Assembly (NCBI GenBank): GCA_040880805.1
Contig: JBBDHW010000067.1
Location: 1 to 35,418, forward strand
Length of the DNA: 35,418 nt
Reading direction: 5' to 3'
From: Acidimicrobiia bacterium
GTDB lineage: Bacteria > Actinomycetota > Acidimicrobiia > IMCC26256 > DASPTH01
In this document: in pieces, positions 17,765 to 35,026 of the stretch
How positions within the stretch are numbered: the first letter of the stretch is position 1
Layout of the letters: every line of letters starts with the position of its first letter
Program-made: the position numbers and the translations under genes
Notes under the pieces: model-generated
What the model saw: only the letters and a program-made list of their open reading frames with translations
Told to the model about the DNA's origin: nothing
Databases searched by the model: none

Positions 17765-18864
17765 CCGTCGCCATTCCCGGCGCGCCCTACGACGTGGTCG
17801 TGGGCGAGGGCGCGCTGGCCGAGGTCGCGGGCGCGGTCGGCGCCCGGCGGAAGGTCGCGGTGGTCAGCCAGGCGGGCGTCGCCGACTTCCACGCCCCCGT
17901 GCTCACCACTGCCCTGCACGGTGCCGGCGCCGAGACCGACGTGTTCCTCATCGGCGACGGCGAAGAGGCGAAGACCCTGGCGACCGTCAACGAGTTGTGC
18001 TCGAAGCTCGCGCGCTGGGGGCTGCTGCGCGGCGACGCGATCGTCGCGCTCGGCGGGGGCGTGGTCGGCGACACCGCCGGATTCGTCGCGTCGGTGTACT
18101 ACCGAGGCATCGCGGTGGTGCAGGCCCCAACCACGTTGCTCGCGCAAGTCGACGCCGCGATAGGCGGCAAGACCGCAGTGAATCTCCCCGAGGGTAAGAA
18201 CCTCGTGGGTGCTTTCCACCAGCCCGTCGCCGTGCTCGCCGACGTGTCGACCCTCGCGACGCTCCCACCGCGCGAATACCGTGCCGGGCTCGGCGAGGTG
18301 GCCAAGTACGCGCTCATGCCCGGCGGCGAGCGCGTCGCCGCGATCGTGCGGAACCATGCCGACGCGGTGATCGCGCGCGACGCCGGCGTCCTCCCGGGGC
18401 TCGTCGCAGCGTGTGTCGCGATGAAAGCCAGCGTGGTCGCGGCCGATCCCGAGGAGCGTACCGGCATCCGTGCATCGCTCAACTACGGCCACACTCTCGC
18501 CCACGCGCTCGAGACGGCCGGCGGCTATGAGCTGCTCCACGGCGAGGCGGTCTCGGTCGGCCTCGTGTTCGCGGGCGCGCTTGCCGGCGCGCTGGAGCGG
18601 CTCGACGCCGAAGCCGTCGACCGGCACCGCGTCACGGTCGAGTCGCTCGGGCTCCCGATCACCGCGCCGGGCGGGATCAGCGCGGCCGACCTTCTCGACG
18701 TCATGCGCCGCGACAAGAAGTCGGTCGGAGGGCTCACGTTCGTGCTCCCCGGCGCCGAGGGCCTCGAGATCGTGCACGACCCCGACCCCCGTGCGCTCGA
18801 CGTCGCGTTCGCGGCAGTCGGCGTGAAGGTCGATGGTTCGCGCGAGGCTGGGGACACGCGGTGA
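17752..18864 (+). CDS. aroB: 3-Dehydroquinate synthase
   Basis: This converts DAHP to 3-dehydroquinate, the second step of the pathway, with NAD and a divalent metal. The start is taken as GTG 17752, with GAGGAG eight bases upstream (17738-17743), giving 370 residues and a 13-base overlap with aroK. GTG 17761, with a 4-base overlap, is possible. Signatures are the NAD-binding GGGVVGDTAGFVASVYYRG, TTLLAQVDAAIGGKTAVNLPEGKNL, and the metal ligands in NYGHTLAHALE and LLHGEAVSVGL. Its stop is followed by the repeat region that separates it from aroQ. Confidence 0.96.
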   Translation: MERVTVAIPGAPYDVVVGEGALAEVAGAVGARRKVAVVSQAGVADFHAPVLTTALHGAGAETDVFLIGDGEEAKTLATVNELCSKLARWGLLRGDAIVALGGGVVGDTAGFVASVYYRGIAVVQAPTTLLAQVDAAIGGKTAVNLPEGKNLVGAFHQPVAVLADVSTLATLPPREYRAGLGEVAKYALMPGGERVAAIVRNHADAVIARDAGVLPGLVAACVAMKASVVAADPEERTGIRASLNYGHTLAHALETAGGYELLHGEAVSVGLVFAGALAGALERLDAEAVDRHRVTVESLGLPITAPGGISAADLLDVMRRDKKSVGGLTFVLPGAEGLEIVHDPDPRALDVAFAAVGVKVDGSREAGDTR

Positions 18865-18902
18865 ACGGAGCGACCGGAGGGAGCGAAGTGAACTCGCCAC
18901 TC

Positions 18903-19004
18903 GAGCGAACGGCCGCGAGCCGGGTATCCCGGCTGGCAGAGAGCGAGCCATGGTGGGGGAGCGAACGGCCGCGAGCCGGGTATCCCGGCTCGCAGAGAGC
19001 GAGC
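18903..19004. repeat. Tandem pair of REP-like hairpin repeats between aroB and aroQ
   Basis: Two 46-base copies (18903-18948 and 18959-19004) differ at a single position. Each starts GAGCGAACGGCCGCG and ends GCAGAGAGCGAGC. The centre AGCCGGGTATCCCGGCT is a perfect 7-bp hairpin with a 3-base loop in copy 1 and extends further in copy 2. Related copies lie at 23236-23281 (inverted), 26140-26161 (half) and 33669-33712 (diverged). The preceding 38 bases (18865-18902) carry related GGAGCGA-type motifs. The repeat contains no gene of its own. Confidence 0.85.
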
Positions 19005-22387: not shown

Positions 22388-23230
22388 ATGCAGGAGTTCC
22401 AGGACAAGGTCGCGGTGATCACAGGCGCGGCGAGCGGAATGGGGCGCGCCTTCGCAGACCGATTCGCAGCCGTTGGGATGAAGCTCGCGCTCGCCGATAT
22501 CGAGGAACCTGAGCTCGCGCGTGCCGTCGATGAATTGAAGGCAGCGGGCGCGGAGGTGATCGGTGTCCGTACCGACGTGGCGCGGATCGAAGACGTGCAG
22601 GCGCTGCGCGATCGCGCGCTTGACGCGTTCGGCTCGGTGCATGTCGTCTGCAACAACGCGGGGGTCGCCGGCGGTTCGGTGATCGACTCACCGATCGAGA
22701 TGTGGCAGTGGGTGCTCGGCGTGAACCTGTGGGGCGTGATCCACGGGTGCAACGTCTTTCTCCCGCTCCTGCTCGAGCAGGACGAAGGGCACGTGGTCAA
22801 CACGGCGTCGATCGCGGGTCTCGGTGGTGCCGCCGGTCTCGGCGTTTACTGCACGAGCAAGTTCGCGGTGGTGGGCCTGAGCGAATCGCTCCACCACGAT
22901 CTTCTGGCTCGGCAGTCGCACGTCGGTGTGTCGGTGCTGTGTCCCGGATTCGTCCAGACCCGCATTTTCGAATCACACCGCAACATGCCCGACGAGGTGC
23001 GCGCAGTGGTCGAGGCCAATGCCGACGCCGACGAGATCCAGCGCACGGTGATCGGTTTCGGGATCCCGCCGGCCGCCGCCGCCGATGCGGTATTCGCGGC
23101 GATCAGCGAGAATCGCTTCTTCGTGCTTCCCCACGAACGGGCCGCGCGCGCGTACATGGAGAGCCGGCTCGAGTGGATGCAGGGTGGCGAGCCCGCGGCG
23201 TTCGACATCGAGTCTCTGATCCGCCCCTGA
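22388..23230 (+). CDS. Short-chain dehydrogenase/reductase
   Basis: The product is 280 residues of the classical SDR type. The cofactor-binding TGAASGMG is at about 13-20, LALADIEEPE contains the Asp that usually selects NAD(H), NNAG is near residue 86, and the catalytic residues are Ser 141, Tyr 154 and Lys 158 (YCTSK). The C-terminus is longer than a minimal SDR and carries a helix (AARAYMESRLEWMQGG) that may close the substrate pocket. The substrate is unknown. It is the first gene of the accessory block; the next feature is an inverted copy of the REP-like repeat just past its stop. Confidence 0.9.
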   Translation: MQEFQDKVAVITGAASGMGRAFADRFAAVGMKLALADIEEPELARAVDELKAAGAEVIGVRTDVARIEDVQALRDRALDAFGSVHVVCNNAGVAGGSVIDSPIEMWQWVLGVNLWGVIHGCNVFLPLLLEQDEGHVVNTASIAGLGGAAGLGVYCTSKFAVVGLSESLHHDLLARQSHVGVSVLCPGFVQTRIFESHRNMPDEVRAVVEANADADEIQRTVIGFGIPPAAAADAVFAAISENRFFVLPHERAARAYMESRLEWMQGGEPAAFDIESLIRP

Positions 23231-23235
23231 CGATG

Positions 23236-23281
23236 GGTCGCTCACTGCGAGCCGTGATACCCGGCTCGCGGCCGTTCGCTC
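23236..23281. repeat. REP-like hairpin repeat, inverted copy
   Basis: This 46-base stretch matches the reverse complement of the copy at 18959-19004 with three mismatches. Downstream, 23294-23337 has a similar build (GTTCGCTGCGA, then CGCAGG-GTA-CCTGCG as a 6-bp hairpin, then ACGCTC) and may be a diverged second copy in tandem. It starts six bases after the SDR stop. Confidence 0.8.
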
Positions 23282-23347
23282 CTGACCCGACTATTGGCTC
23301 GTTCGCTGCGACGCAGGGTACCTGCGCCGCGGACGCTCAGTCCCGAC

Positions 23348-23398: not shown

Positions 23399-24622
23399 GT
23401 GGACGACAAGGTGGACGACGTCGACATGACGGAGCCGGTACTCGCCGATTCACTCGCGGAACGGTCCATCCACGAGCGGTTCCTGATCGACCGCGCCGCC
23501 CGAGAGTCCGAGATCGTGGCCATGCTCGCGCTGTCGCCGTTCGTGCGGGGCGACGAACCGTGGATGGCGAAGTTCCGCATCGACGCCGAGGTCGCGCCAC
23601 TCGACATCCTTCCCGACGGCACCGAGATCGATCGGTGGGTCGAGACGAGTTGGTCGGTGAGTGCGGCGGCGCGCTGGCGCGAGGTGACGCTCTTCGTCGA
23701 GACGTACTCGGGGGGTGCGCGCGTCACGATCACCGCGCCTACTCGTGAGCTCGTCGAAGAAGCTCGGGCCATTGTCCGCGAGCGAAGCCCGGAACCCGAC
23801 CTGAGCGACGCGGTGCAGGTCGCGTTCTGGCGGTGGGGCGATCATGGCGCGCACGAGACGACGCGCGCGCTCGATACGCCGAGCTGGGCCGAGATCCGGC
23901 CCAACTATTCCGGCACTGCGGGCACGCGGCTCGACGAGCTCATGAAGCTCGAGGCGCCCACCGGCGGAGGGAAGCTCCTGCTGTGGCACGGCGAGCCCGG
24001 CACCGGCAAGACCACTGCCATCCGTTCGCTCATCCGTGAATGGCGCGGGTGGTGCGACCCGCAGTACGTCACGGACCCCGAACGCTTCTTCAACGAGGCG
24101 AACTACATGCTCGACGTGCTGCTCTCGTCCGACCGTCGGGAGATGCGTCCGGGGGTGCGAGGCCTGCCCGGTGGGCTCGGGCCCGGTGGACTCGGGCCCG
24201 GTGGACTCGGGCCCGGTGGACTCGGGCCCGGTAGCGGGATGGTCCCGAGCGACCGCTGGAAGCTCGTGATCGCCGAGGACGCCGACGAGTACGTGCGGAG
24301 TGACGCGCGCCGTCGCGCCGGCGCGTCACTCGGCCGCCTGCTCAACGTTGCCGACGGCATGCTCGGCCAGGGACTCAACACGCTCGTGCTCCTCACGACG
24401 AACGAGGAGATCGCGCGTCTGCATCCGGCCGTGGTGCGCCCGGGCCGGTGCCTGTGCCTCATCGAGTTCGAACGGTTCGACACCGCCGGAGCGCGTGCCT
24501 GGCTCGGCGACGACTCCGTCACCGACGAGCCCACGCTCGCCGAGCTCTACGAGCGCCGCGACAACCCCAACGGCCTCCTTCGCGAGACCGCACCCACGCA
24601 CAGGCCCGCTGGCTACGTCTGA
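23399..24622 (+). CDS. AAA-family ATPase with DUF5925-like N-terminal region
   Basis: The product is 407 residues from GTG 23399 (GAGGGG upstream at 23382-23387; ATG 23426 is an alternative). The first 180 residues resemble the DUF5925 region found before AAA domains in actinobacteria. The ATPase part has Walker A GEPGTGKTT at 198-206, an acidic Walker B LVIAEDADEYV at 289-299, sensor-like VLLTTNEEIARLHPAVVRPGRC, and LIEFERF. Between Walker A and B lies an insert of four PGGLG units encoded by a 15-base tandem repeat. There is no signal peptide. The role is unknown; single-ring AAA proteins of this kind often remodel a partner protein, but no partner is obvious. The next gene starts 25 bases on. 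Confidence 0.85.
   Translation: MDDKVDDVDMTEPVLADSLAERSIHERFLIDRAARESEIVAMLALSPFVRGDEPWMAKFRIDAEVAPLDILPDGTEIDRWVETSWSVSAAARWREVTLFVETYSGGARVTITAPTRELVEEARAIVRERSPEPDLSDAVQVAFWRWGDHGAHETTRALDTPSWAEIRPNYSGTAGTRLDELMKLEAPTGGGKLLLWHGEPGTGKTTAIRSLIREWRGWCDPQYVTDPERFFNEANYMLDVLLSSDRREMRPGVRGLPGGLGPGGLGPGGLGPGGLGPGSGMVPSDRWKLVIAEDADEYVRSDARRRAGASLGRLLNVADGMLGQGLNTLVLLTTNEEIARLHPAVVRPGRCLCLIEFERFDTAGARAWLGDDSVTDEPTLAELYERRDNPNGLLRETAPTHRPAGYV
24167..24226. repeat. 15-base in-frame tandem repeat in the AAA gene
   Basis: Four units of CCCGGTGGACTCGGG (the first has GGGC in place of GGAC) plus a partial fifth. They encode PGGLG repeated four times in a loop between Walker A and Walker B. Confidence 0.95.
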
Positions 24623-24647: not shown

Positions 24648-26165
24648 GTGGTGGTGGGGGGCGGACACAACGGGCTCACCTGCGCGGCCTACCTCGCGCG
24701 CGGTGGTCTCTCGGTTCTGGTGCTCGAGCGACGCGCGCAGGTCGGGGGTGCGTGCACGTTGGAGCGGCCGTTCGCCGACCAGCGCTTCGTGATGAGCCCG
24801 TGCGCCTACCTGGTGGGGCTGCTGCACCCGCTCGTCATCGCCGAGCTCGACCTACCCCGCCGCGGCTACCGCACGTTCCCCGTAGACCCCACGCAGTGGA
24901 CGCCATTCGAGGACGGCACCGCGCTCGTCCAGTGGCACGACGAGGCGAAGACGGCGCGTGCCGTCGCCGCGATCGCACCGAACGATGTGGAGGGGTTCCT
25001 TGCGTACGACGCGTTGTTCAGGCGCATCCGGGATCGTCTCCGCAACGGTCCCCGCGGCGACGTGTGGCTCGGTGACTCGCCCGATCGCGCCCAGCTCGAG
25101 GAACTCTTCGTCGACGACGCCGAGGCGCTCGAAGTGGTGCTCGACGCTTCGATCGCCGACGTGGTCGAGCGTCATGTGCGCGACGAACGCCTGCGCATCG
25201 CCCTGCACGGCCAGGGCGTGATCGGCACCTTCGCCGGACCCCGCGATCCCGGAACCGCGTGGATCCACGCCCACCACAGCCTCGGCCTCATCGGCGGCTG
25301 GTCGTTCGTGGAGGGAGGGATCGGCCGGGTGTCGTTCCTCCTCGCCGACGCCGCGCGCGACGCAGGGGCAGTGATCGCCGCGGGTGTACCCGTTGCTGCC
25401 ATCACACCGGGGGAAGGTGTGCAACTCGACGACGGCACGGTCATCGGGGCCAACGTCGTGGTGAGCAACGCCGACCCGGTCCGCACTCTCGCGTTGCTCC
25501 GCGCCGCGGGCGCGGGCGAGCCGACCTTCTCGCGGGCGGTCGATCGCTGGCGCATCACCAGCCCGGTGATCAAGCTGAATTGTGCGCTCTCACGCCTGCC
25601 GACGTTTCCTGCCGCCAACGGTGATCCCACGGTGTTCCGCGCGCAGATCGAGATCGCGCGCAGCATCGACGAGACGCAGGCGGCATACACCGCAGCCCGC
25701 CGCGGCGAGCCGGCGCCCGAGTGGTGCGAGCTCTACTTCCAGACCGCGTACGACTCGACGGTCGCGCCGTTCGGCCACCACACGATGAGTGTGTTCGCCC
25801 AGTTCGTGCCCTACCAGTTCGCGTCGGATACCTGGGAGAACCGGCGTGACGAGATCGGCGACGCGACCCTCGCGGCGATCGCGCGCTTCGCGCCCGACGT
25901 GGCCGACTGCATCGTCGACCGGCAGGTGCTCGGCCCACCCGACGTGGAGGAGCGGATCGGCCTCACCGGTGGACACATCTTTCAGGGCGAGTGCCTGCCC
26001 GACCAGATGTGGGACCGACGGTTCGCTGCGCGCACGCCGGTACCCGGCGTCTATCTGTGCGGCGCGGCCACACATCCGGGCGGCTCGGTGATGGGCGTGA
26101 ACGGCCGCAACGCCGCCGCCGCGGTGCTGGCCGACCGAGCCCGGCTCGCAGCCGTTCGCTCCTAA
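24648..26165 (+). CDS. FAD-dependent oxidoreductase, phytoene desaturase/PYROXD2-like
   Basis: The start is taken as GTG 24648, with a perfect AGGAGG nine bases upstream (24633-24638). It gives 505 residues beginning inside the dinucleotide fold (VVVGGGHNGLTCAAYLARGG). The frame is open further upstream but overlaps the AAA gene. After the Rossmann motif come VLERRAQVGGACTLE, the central substrate domain, a second FAD contact GVYLCGAATHPGGSVMGVNGRNAAAAVL near the C-terminus, typical of PYROXD2 and CrtI-like proteins. The substrate is unknown. The last residues (ARLAAVRS) are encoded by half a copy of the REP-like repeat. The stop overlaps by four bases the stop of the convergent acetoacetyl-CoA synthetase gene. 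Confidence 0.88.
   Translation: MVVGGGHNGLTCAAYLARGGLSVLVLERRAQVGGACTLERPFADQRFVMSPCAYLVGLLHPLVIAELDLPRRGYRTFPVDPTQWTPFEDGTALVQWHDEAKTARAVAAIAPNDVEGFLAYDALFRRIRDRLRNGPRGDVWLGDSPDRAQLEELFVDDAEALEVVLDASIADVVERHVRDERLRIALHGQGVIGTFAGPRDPGTAWIHAHHSLGLIGGWSFVEGGIGRVSFLLADAARDAGAVIAAGVPVAAITPGEGVQLDDGTVIGANVVVSNADPVRTLALLRAAGAGEPTFSRAVDRWRITSPVIKLNCALSRLPTFPAANGDPTVFRAQIEIARSIDETQAAYTAARRGEPAPEWCELYFQTAYDSTVAPFGHHTMSVFAQFVPYQFASDTWENRRDEIGDATLAAIARFAPDVADCIVDRQVLGPPDVEERIGLTGGHIFQGECLPDQMWDRRFAARTPVPGVYLCGAATHPGGSVMGVNGRNAAAAVLADRARLAAVRS
26140..26161. repeat. Half copy of the REP-like repeat inside the flavoprotein gene
   Basis: CCCGGCTCGCAGCCGTTCGCTC matches one half of the repeat (inverted orientation, as at 23236-23281) with one mismatch over 22 bases. 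It supplies the last seven codons of the oxidoreductase gene. Confidence 0.65.
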
Positions 26166-32000: not shown

Positions 32001-33652
<1,652 letters not shown>

Positions 33653-33653
33653 G

Positions 33654-33739
33654 CGAACGGAGCGAATGGAGCGAGCGCAAGCAATCCGGTTATTCCGGCG
33701 AGCAGCGAGCGGAAGTAGCGAAGTGGGAGCGGAAGAGAA
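33654..33739. repeat. Diverged REP-like repeat between pyrB and pyrC
   Basis: The core 33669-33712 (GAGCGAGCG, then CCGGTTATTCCGG as a hairpin, then CGAGCAGCGAGCG) lines up with the repeat at 18903-19004; both arms changed while the hairpin was kept. Flanking motifs GAGCGAACGGAGCGA (33653-33667) and TAGCGAAGTG also occur near 18865-18895. The end of this stretch supplies GGAAGAG, the likely ribosome binding site of pyrC. Confidence 0.6.
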
Positions 33740-35026
33740 GTGACGGAGCTGGTCATTCGCGGCGGGCGCGTGGTCGACCACGACGGCGAACGCGTGGCGG
33801 ATGTGCTGGTGCGCGGCGGTCACGTCGTCGAGGTTGGCACCGGTCTCACCGGCGACGAGACGCTCGACGCGTCGGGCTGCATCGTGGCGCCCGGCCTCGT
33901 CGATCTCCACGTGCACCTGCGCGAACCGGGCATGGAGGAAGCGGAGACCGTCGAGACCGGCGCGCGCGCCGCCGCCCTCGGTGGCTTCACCGCGGTCGTC
34001 GCGATGCCCAACACCGAACCCGCGCTCGACGATCCCGCCATCGTCGCATCGGTGCTCGCGGCGGGGGTGCGCGCCGCGTGCGACGTGGTCTCGTCGGGCT
34101 GCATCACGAAGGGCCGCGCCGGAGAGACGCTCGCGCCCATGGGCGAGTTGCACGGCCTCGGGGTGCGGATCTTCACCGACGACGGCGCGTGCGTCGCCGA
34201 CGCGGGCGTGATGCGGCACGCGCTCGAGTACTCGCTCGCGTTGCCGGGCGCGGTTATCGCGCAACACGCGGAAGATGCCGGGCTCGCGGGAGGTGGATCG
34301 ATGCACGAGGGTGCCTGGTCGAGCCGCCTCGGCATCCCGGGCCGGCCCGCCGCCGCCGAAGACATCATCGTCGCCCGCGACCTGATCCTCGCCGAGCTCA
34401 CGGGTGCGCGTGTGCACTTCCTGCACCTGTCAACGGCCGGCGCGGTCGAGTTGGTGCGCGCCGCGAAGGCTCGCGGCCTCGCGGTCACTGCCGAGGCCGC
34501 GCCGCACCACTTCACCCTCACCGACGAGTGCTGCGCGAGCTTCGACCCGGTGTTCAAGGTGCATCCGCCGCTGCGTACCCACGCCGACGTCGAGGCGATC
34601 AAACGCGGACTCGCCGACGGCACCATCGACGCCATCGCCACCGATCACGCGCCGCACCCGGTGGAGCAGAAGGAGCGGCCGTTCGAGGAGGCACCCCCGG
34701 GGATGCTCGGCCTCGAGACGTCTTTCGCGCTCACGCTCACCGAGCTCGTCGAACCGGGTGTGCTGTCGCTCGTCGACGCTTTCGCGCTCCTCTCGTGGCG
34801 CCCCGCCGCGATCGCAGGGCTCGCGCATCACGGGCAGCCGATCACACCCGGCGCCGTCGCCAACCTCTGCGTCATCGACCCTGCCGTCACCTGGGAGGTC
34901 GACCCGCTGCGCCTCGCCAGCAAGGCCCGCAACACGCCCTTCGCCGGCCGCAAGCTCACCGGCCGCGTGCGCCACACCATCCTGCGCGGCGATCCCGTCG
35001 TCGTCGACGGCGAGGCCCGGCGATGA
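33740..35026 (+). CDS. pyrC: Dihydroorotase
   Basis: This cyclises carbamoyl-aspartate to dihydroorotate, the third step of pyrimidine synthesis. The product is 428 residues, the class I (long) type. The zinc-binding HxH is at 57-59 ([10 protein letters not shown]), followed by [70 protein letters not shown] and the catalytic Asp in [15 protein letters not shown] 33740 follows the repeat region. The stop overlaps carA (ATGA). Confidence 0.95.

Follow-up and report, generated by a model that had tools for sequence, protein, structure and literature searches.

A REP-like and MIRU-like extragenic repeat with a covarying stem-loop in one order of Acidimicrobiia

We describe a family of 46-bp repeats that occurs in high copy number in an Acidimicrobiia genome, lies mostly outside genes and carries a stem-loop whose pairing is maintained by covariation. 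On balance, we regard the repeat as a small non-autonomous mobile element whose plus strand folds, which inserts at gene ends and stop/start junctions, and which is probably moved in trans by an enzyme. The repeat is both REP-like and MIRU-like, the latter by comparison with the description of MIRUs, and is probably not a REP/RAYT family. REP-like repeats are usually ascribed to RAYTs, and the Acidimicrobiia family behaves alike without any, making it a clean case for finding other spreaders of REP-like repeats.

Copies in the window and in the source genome

The window, that is, the whole 35,418-nt stretch of DNA analysed, contains five core units and one half copy according to a pattern search combined with a covariance model (Table 1). 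The initial annotation had listed a near-identical tandem pair, an inverted copy with three mismatches, a half copy and a diverged copy near 33669–33712 with its hairpin kept; all of these were recovered, but a fifth unit, in tandem with the inverted copy, had been overlooked. The tandem pair has a 56-bp period and one mismatch, and its second copy has an identical 46-mer at C5:2812–2857 of the source genome (G000). The inverted unit sits 3' of a short-chain dehydrogenase gene (22388–23230), and the additional unit beside it has the stem GCGGCGCAGG-TAC-CCTGCGTCGC, in which the arms are altered and pairing is retained. Similarly, the diverged unit retains CCGG...CCGG and the outer pairs. An Rfam scan of the window gave no match.

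Table 1 Repeat units and associated features in the window (CM, covariance model).
Feature	Position	Strand	Remarks
Degenerate hairpin 2 of composite form	18858–18899	+	Outer arms and bulge shared with hairpin 2 of other copies
aroB predicted stop codon	18862–18864		Within 5' end of degenerate hairpin 2
Core unit, tandem copy 1, aroB/aroQ gap	18903–18948	+	1 mismatch to genome consensus; CM E 1.9e-15
10-bp spacer CATGGTGGGG	18949–18958	+	Variant of the CATNGTNAGG tail found after single-core copies
Core unit, tandem copy 2	18959–19004	+	0 mismatches; 8 bp upstream of aroQ start (19013)
Inverted core unit	23236–23281	-	3 mismatches; pair 7–38 is A-T
Extra core unit, in tandem with 23236–23281	23297–23342	-	CM E 4.3e-11
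5' half of core unit	26140–26161	-	Weak CM score (E 0.016); clear by eye
Diverged core unit, gap between pyrB (end 33652) and pyrC (start 33740)	33669–33714	+	CM E 3.4e-11

Other repeats were also seen in the window. A low-complexity repeat (GAGCGGAAGTAGCGAAGTGGGAGCGGAAG; AAGCGCAGCAAAGAGTTTGG), possibly a separate family, occupies junctions at 33700–33740 and in a related genome (G046; L155, L166). Two 15-bp tandem repeats lie within genes: a perfect one of 3.7 copies (32666–32721) encodes (NQDEA)n at the C terminus of a pyrR-like gene (32139–32732), and one of 4.5 copies (24166–24232) encodes (GPGGL)n in an AAA/DUF5925 protein (23399–24622).

The unit is not restricted to the window. In the source genome (3.49 Mb in 69 contigs, 95% complete), a search with the 46-base unit returned 23 copies at ≤3 mismatches, with none for the reversed-pattern control, and BLAST with a 62-base consensus found about 42 distinct places. 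A covariance model trained on 25 copies gave at least ~145 matches at a threshold of E<1e-4 among the matches listed; together with the 23 copies against none, this excludes chance. The density is about one copy per 24 kb. For 11 of the 82 full-length copies an identical 46-mer exists elsewhere in the genome, and for a further 14 of the 82 the nearest copy has a single-base difference, so that part of the spread looks recent, with local tandem duplicates contributing.

Copies occur in several forms. Single-core copies are ~57 bp long and end in a CATNGTNAGG tail, which also serves as the spacer in tandem arrays with a 55–56-bp period. In a composite form of ~85–110 bp, the core is preceded by a second stem-loop, GCGGCGxxx...xxxCGC-T-CGCCA, which has a bulged T and inner arms that are variable but complementary; this form makes up about a third of the copies in the source genome and most of those examined in G030, a genome of the genus g23 compared below. 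A subfamily found in three other genomes (G018, G002 and G048; L207–L210) has the 5' arm GAGCG-GCGAGCG and the tail GAGCGCGACNAT, with the inner stem kept.

We mapped copies relative to genes called with a codon-based caller trained on long ORFs of the source genome, which recovered the expected window genes. Copies are not placed at random: of the 93 examined, 84 are clear of any called gene, compared to 6.9% of random 46-mers from the same stretches (P 8e-87); six fall entirely within a called gene and three overlap the 3' end of one. The initial annotation placed all window copies between genes or at gene ends; the half copy is not intergenic but forms the last codons of a gene. As a separate observation, at 26140–26165 this half copy supplies the C-terminal codons of an FAD-dependent oxidoreductase gene (24648–26165) whose stop codon overlaps that of a convergent AMP-binding gene. 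Of the 81 non-overlapping copies with both neighbours called, 33 in sense and 22 in antisense orientation separate codirectional genes, 19 separate convergent genes and 7 separate divergent ones. Stop codons frequently abut the unit: an antisense gene ends 2–6 bp past the 3' end of the unit at 23 copies (TCAGG in 16/23, TTAGG in 3/23), and the TAG of a sense gene touches its 5' end at 6 copies. Among the neighbouring genes are aroB/aroQ and pyrB/pyrC in the window, with rplK and rpsN-like genes, named from N-terminal sequences, elsewhere in the genome. Insertion at gene ends and junctions would rarely damage coding sequence, even in essential operons. Copies within operons would, by analogy with REPs, place hairpins in polycistronic mRNA, and the many natural hairpin insertions between essential operon genes are useful for gauging effects on expression.

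Fold of the core unit

The initial annotation had described a perfect 7-bp hairpin, AGCCGGG-TAT-CCCGGCT; the hairpin is real, but its stem has 10 bp (GCGAGCCGGG-TAT-CCCGGCTCGC) and lies within a longer fold, a 44-nt stem-loop of the 46-bp unit in which the inner stem is enclosed by an outer helix. In an alignment of 106 distinct cores taken from two genomes, 95.5% of the inner-stem cells are paired versus 84.2% in shuffles (0/1000, with statistics that ignore the kinship of copies), and sliding the stem by 1–2 columns lowers pairing to 33–49%. In the outer helix, pair 7–38 covaries (39 A-T, 42 G-C, 2 A-C and 2 G-T; P 2.5e-19, kinship again ignored), with A.A at these positions in a further 33 copies, mainly of the composite subgroup. 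Pair 4–41 covaries from C-G to T-A (P 4e-4, on the same terms as to kinship), pair 3–42 changes from G-C to A-T in four copies, and 92–98% have G.A or A.G at positions 1.44, 2.43, 5.40 and 6.39. Because these three pairs covary and the mismatches between them are conserved as G.A, the apparent direct repeat GAGCGA...GAGCGA is, as predicted from the aligned sequences, an antiparallel helix with tandem G.A steps. The two GAGCGA arms would contribute a G-C pair, a C-G pair, the covarying A-T/G-C pair and two tandem G.A steps. Consistent with this, the six strongest signals among all column pairs after average-product correction belong to the proposed fold, and a compensatory change was observed at one orthologous site (GTGCCGGG/CCCGGCAC in G030, GGGCCGGG/CCCGGCCC in G045). 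The covariation-defined fold is unusually clear, so that the recognised structure is directly testable.

The two strands are not equivalent. Within the inner stem, G.T outnumbers A.C (21 versus 4, P 9e-4), indicating that the plus strand is the folding strand; each unit would thus fold on this strand when single-stranded. As copies occur both with and against the direction of transcription, the selected folded molecule is in our view more likely single-stranded DNA than mRNA, while covariation alone fits both and the numbers split by orientation are small.

The arms also recall a quadruplex motif in which AGCGA forms G-A and G-C pairs in DNA (PMC5442326): GAGCGA includes AGCGA, and one tandem pair of units provides four such tracts. 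However, the covariation found here supports a fold in which two arms pair on either side of a stem-loop, and the tracts are farther apart than in the oligonucleotides studied.

Orthologous sites and distribution

Next to its placement and fold, the repeat differs in occurrence between close relatives. We searched the flanks of ~16 copies of G030 in its congeners of genus g23 (G044, G045 and G046; ~80% DNA identity), naming junction genes from N-terminal sequences and gene order. The atpH|atpA junction bears a copy in G030 and none in G044 (ATCTAGATGGCAG), the rpsL|rpsG junction bears one in G030 and none in G045 and G046 (CCTGAGATGCCGCGC, TCCTAATGCC), and junction b11 has no copy in G044. Junction b10 is empty in all three relatives of G030, which favours insertion over loss. 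At sites b3 and b6, several relatives also have a copy, with pairing kept despite changed arms. Presence and absence at orthologous junctions therefore points to mobility, though with relatives only ~80% identical some of the missing copies could be precise losses. Short repeats at copy ends (GTGA, CTGA, AGATG) are possible target duplications; they differ between sites, and the ends are approximate. A fixed TNAG target, as in IS200/IS605, fits many single-core copies but was rejected, as the insertion-free orthologous sites have no one consistent target.

The covariance model matched 16 of 58 genomes of the host's order, with 1 to >130 copies each; among 246 genomes drawn from the class, it matched solely members of that one order. 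The repeat is patchy within the order and uneven within one genus. Named carriers among the relatives are lake and soil MAGs of Acidimicrobiia and Actinomycetota, and an exact-pattern scan of viral contigs detected no repeat. One further record bearing the repeat, CAMDCC010000040.1 (L076), is labelled as a Bifidobacterium breve MAG; this label is probably wrong, as the repeat is otherwise found only in this order of Acidimicrobiia.

Candidate mechanisms and relation to known repeats

The most likely scenario is that the folded single strand serves as substrate for an enzyme that copies or moves the units in trans, with gene ends and stop/start junctions as insertion sites, frequently next to TAG or TCAG stops. 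More tentatively, the family may represent a class of mobile repeats that travel in folded single-stranded form by means of an enzyme outside the known Y1/Y2 HUH transposases; the stem flanked by tandem G.A steps would be recognised, and insertion would be at stop codons.

The initial annotation read the repeat as a mobile or structural element in the style of REP/BIME sequences. REPs are short extragenic hairpin repeats of >100 copies, with alternative complementary stems, G.T pairs, clusters and a patchy distribution (PMC3733652). The Acidimicrobiia repeat shares these properties: its palindrome is extragenic and of high copy number by the counts above, its hairpin is of REP size and covaries, its copies cluster in tandem arrays, and sites without the insertion exist in relatives. 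This part of the annotation stood, and the same likeness could reflect a true REP family in which the RAYT was lost or became unrecognisable through divergence, so that the copies would be relics or be moved by an undetected RAYT. We searched all 58 genomes of the order for Y1, Y2 and reverse-transcriptase families. Y1_Tnp (PF01797), which the annotation had suggested seeking as a RAYT-type enzyme in the same genome, was found in none of the 16 carrier genomes, although positive controls were detected, and the four genomes of the order that do possess it are all without the repeat; absence across 16 draft assemblies makes an assembly artefact unlikely. Moreover, 11 cores of the source genome have an identical second copy, a recent-looking spread despite the lack of a Y1 enzyme. 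A GTAG or CGTC tag was likewise not found at the stem end, where the column consensus of 106 cores has GNCC and AGNG at the feet; a RAYT and such a tag are the two defining marks of RAYT-linked REPs. The 55–56-bp direct tandem arrays, the outer helix with tandem G.A steps and the second stem-loop set the repeat apart from REPs. We therefore judge a true REP family to be unlikely, even if CGTC-tagged palindromic repeats are likewise REP-like hairpins with no dedicated transposase (PMC3733652); compared to these, the Acidimicrobiia unit has no CGTC tag and a different stem and flanks. REPs with GTAG/CGTC have been reported from other phyla and none from Actinobacteria (PMC3733652), and in a survey of Y1 enzymes the Actinobacteridae carried only the IS200-type subclass (PMC6006769), in line with the absence of RAYTs from the carriers. 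Our literature search found no paper on such repeats in Acidimicrobiia, nor on RAYTs together with Actinobacteria.

The bulged-T stem-loop would also fit a REP family or a mini-element of the IS200/IS605 type. Substrates of IS200/IS605 contain a stem-loop with a bulged T, and mini-elements of this type have subterminal hairpins, a fixed target tetranucleotide and a TnpA acting in trans. The repeat has hairpins and a TNAG-like flank, but TnpA was found in none of the 16 carriers. As mobilisers, Y2_Tnp and RVT_1 were both rejected, since the occurrence of neither tracks the repeat across the 58 genomes. Reverse transcriptases bearing YADD (L203, L204, L205) occur in the source genome (C69, C38), with a homologue in G030 (C31); by eye they are of the group II intron type, and the stretches examined around their genes held no repeat copy.

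Slightly less probable than a true REP family is a repeat of the mycobacterial MIRU type, or a close relative, which would insert at overlapping stop/start codons and keep the genes translationally coupled through a short ORF. MIRUs form tandem arrays and may follow a DTGA target rule on insertion. They are inserted at start codons within operons, and their small ORF overlaps the next gene by 4 nt (PMC12548453). By this description, the Acidimicrobiia repeat is similar in being actinobacterial, tandemly arrayed, apparently mobile and, in part of the copies, inserted at start codons or junctions of operons, and by analogy its site preference resembles that of mycobacterial MIRUs at least as much as that of REPs. 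Several orthologous comparisons show insertions at stop|start junctions, and some copies have GTGA or ATGA at both ends (for example GGTGAGCGAACGG...GCAGGTGACC). In G030, 10 of 15 sense junctions contain a bridging small ORF, against 4.1 ± 1.4 after shuffling; in the source genome only 8 of 30 do, where 4.9 ± 1.8 were expected, so that the ORF is clear in only part of the copies. Furthermore, the repeat occurs in both orientations, with 22 of 56 codirectional copies in the source genome antisense, and many copies lie between convergent genes.

We regard as improbable a host-owned mRNA element, such as a terminator, attenuator or processing site, kept for gene control. The strong structure with compensatory change, the occupation of the same site in relatives (b3, b6) and the location at gene ends and inside operons would agree with such a role, but the copies face both ways relative to transcription (34 sense and 22 antisense in the source genome) and their positions are not conserved between congeners. 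In addition to the lack of an Rfam match, no T-run of an intrinsic terminator follows the stem: the 3' flank is AGNGAGCGA, and the 5' flank on the other strand also has none. Finally, spread as a binding site for a chromosome-organising protein would suit a structured, intergenic repeat at ~1 copy/24 kb, but is very improbable given that most genomes of the order are without the repeat, that it is uneven within one genus, and that its fold is strand-specific.
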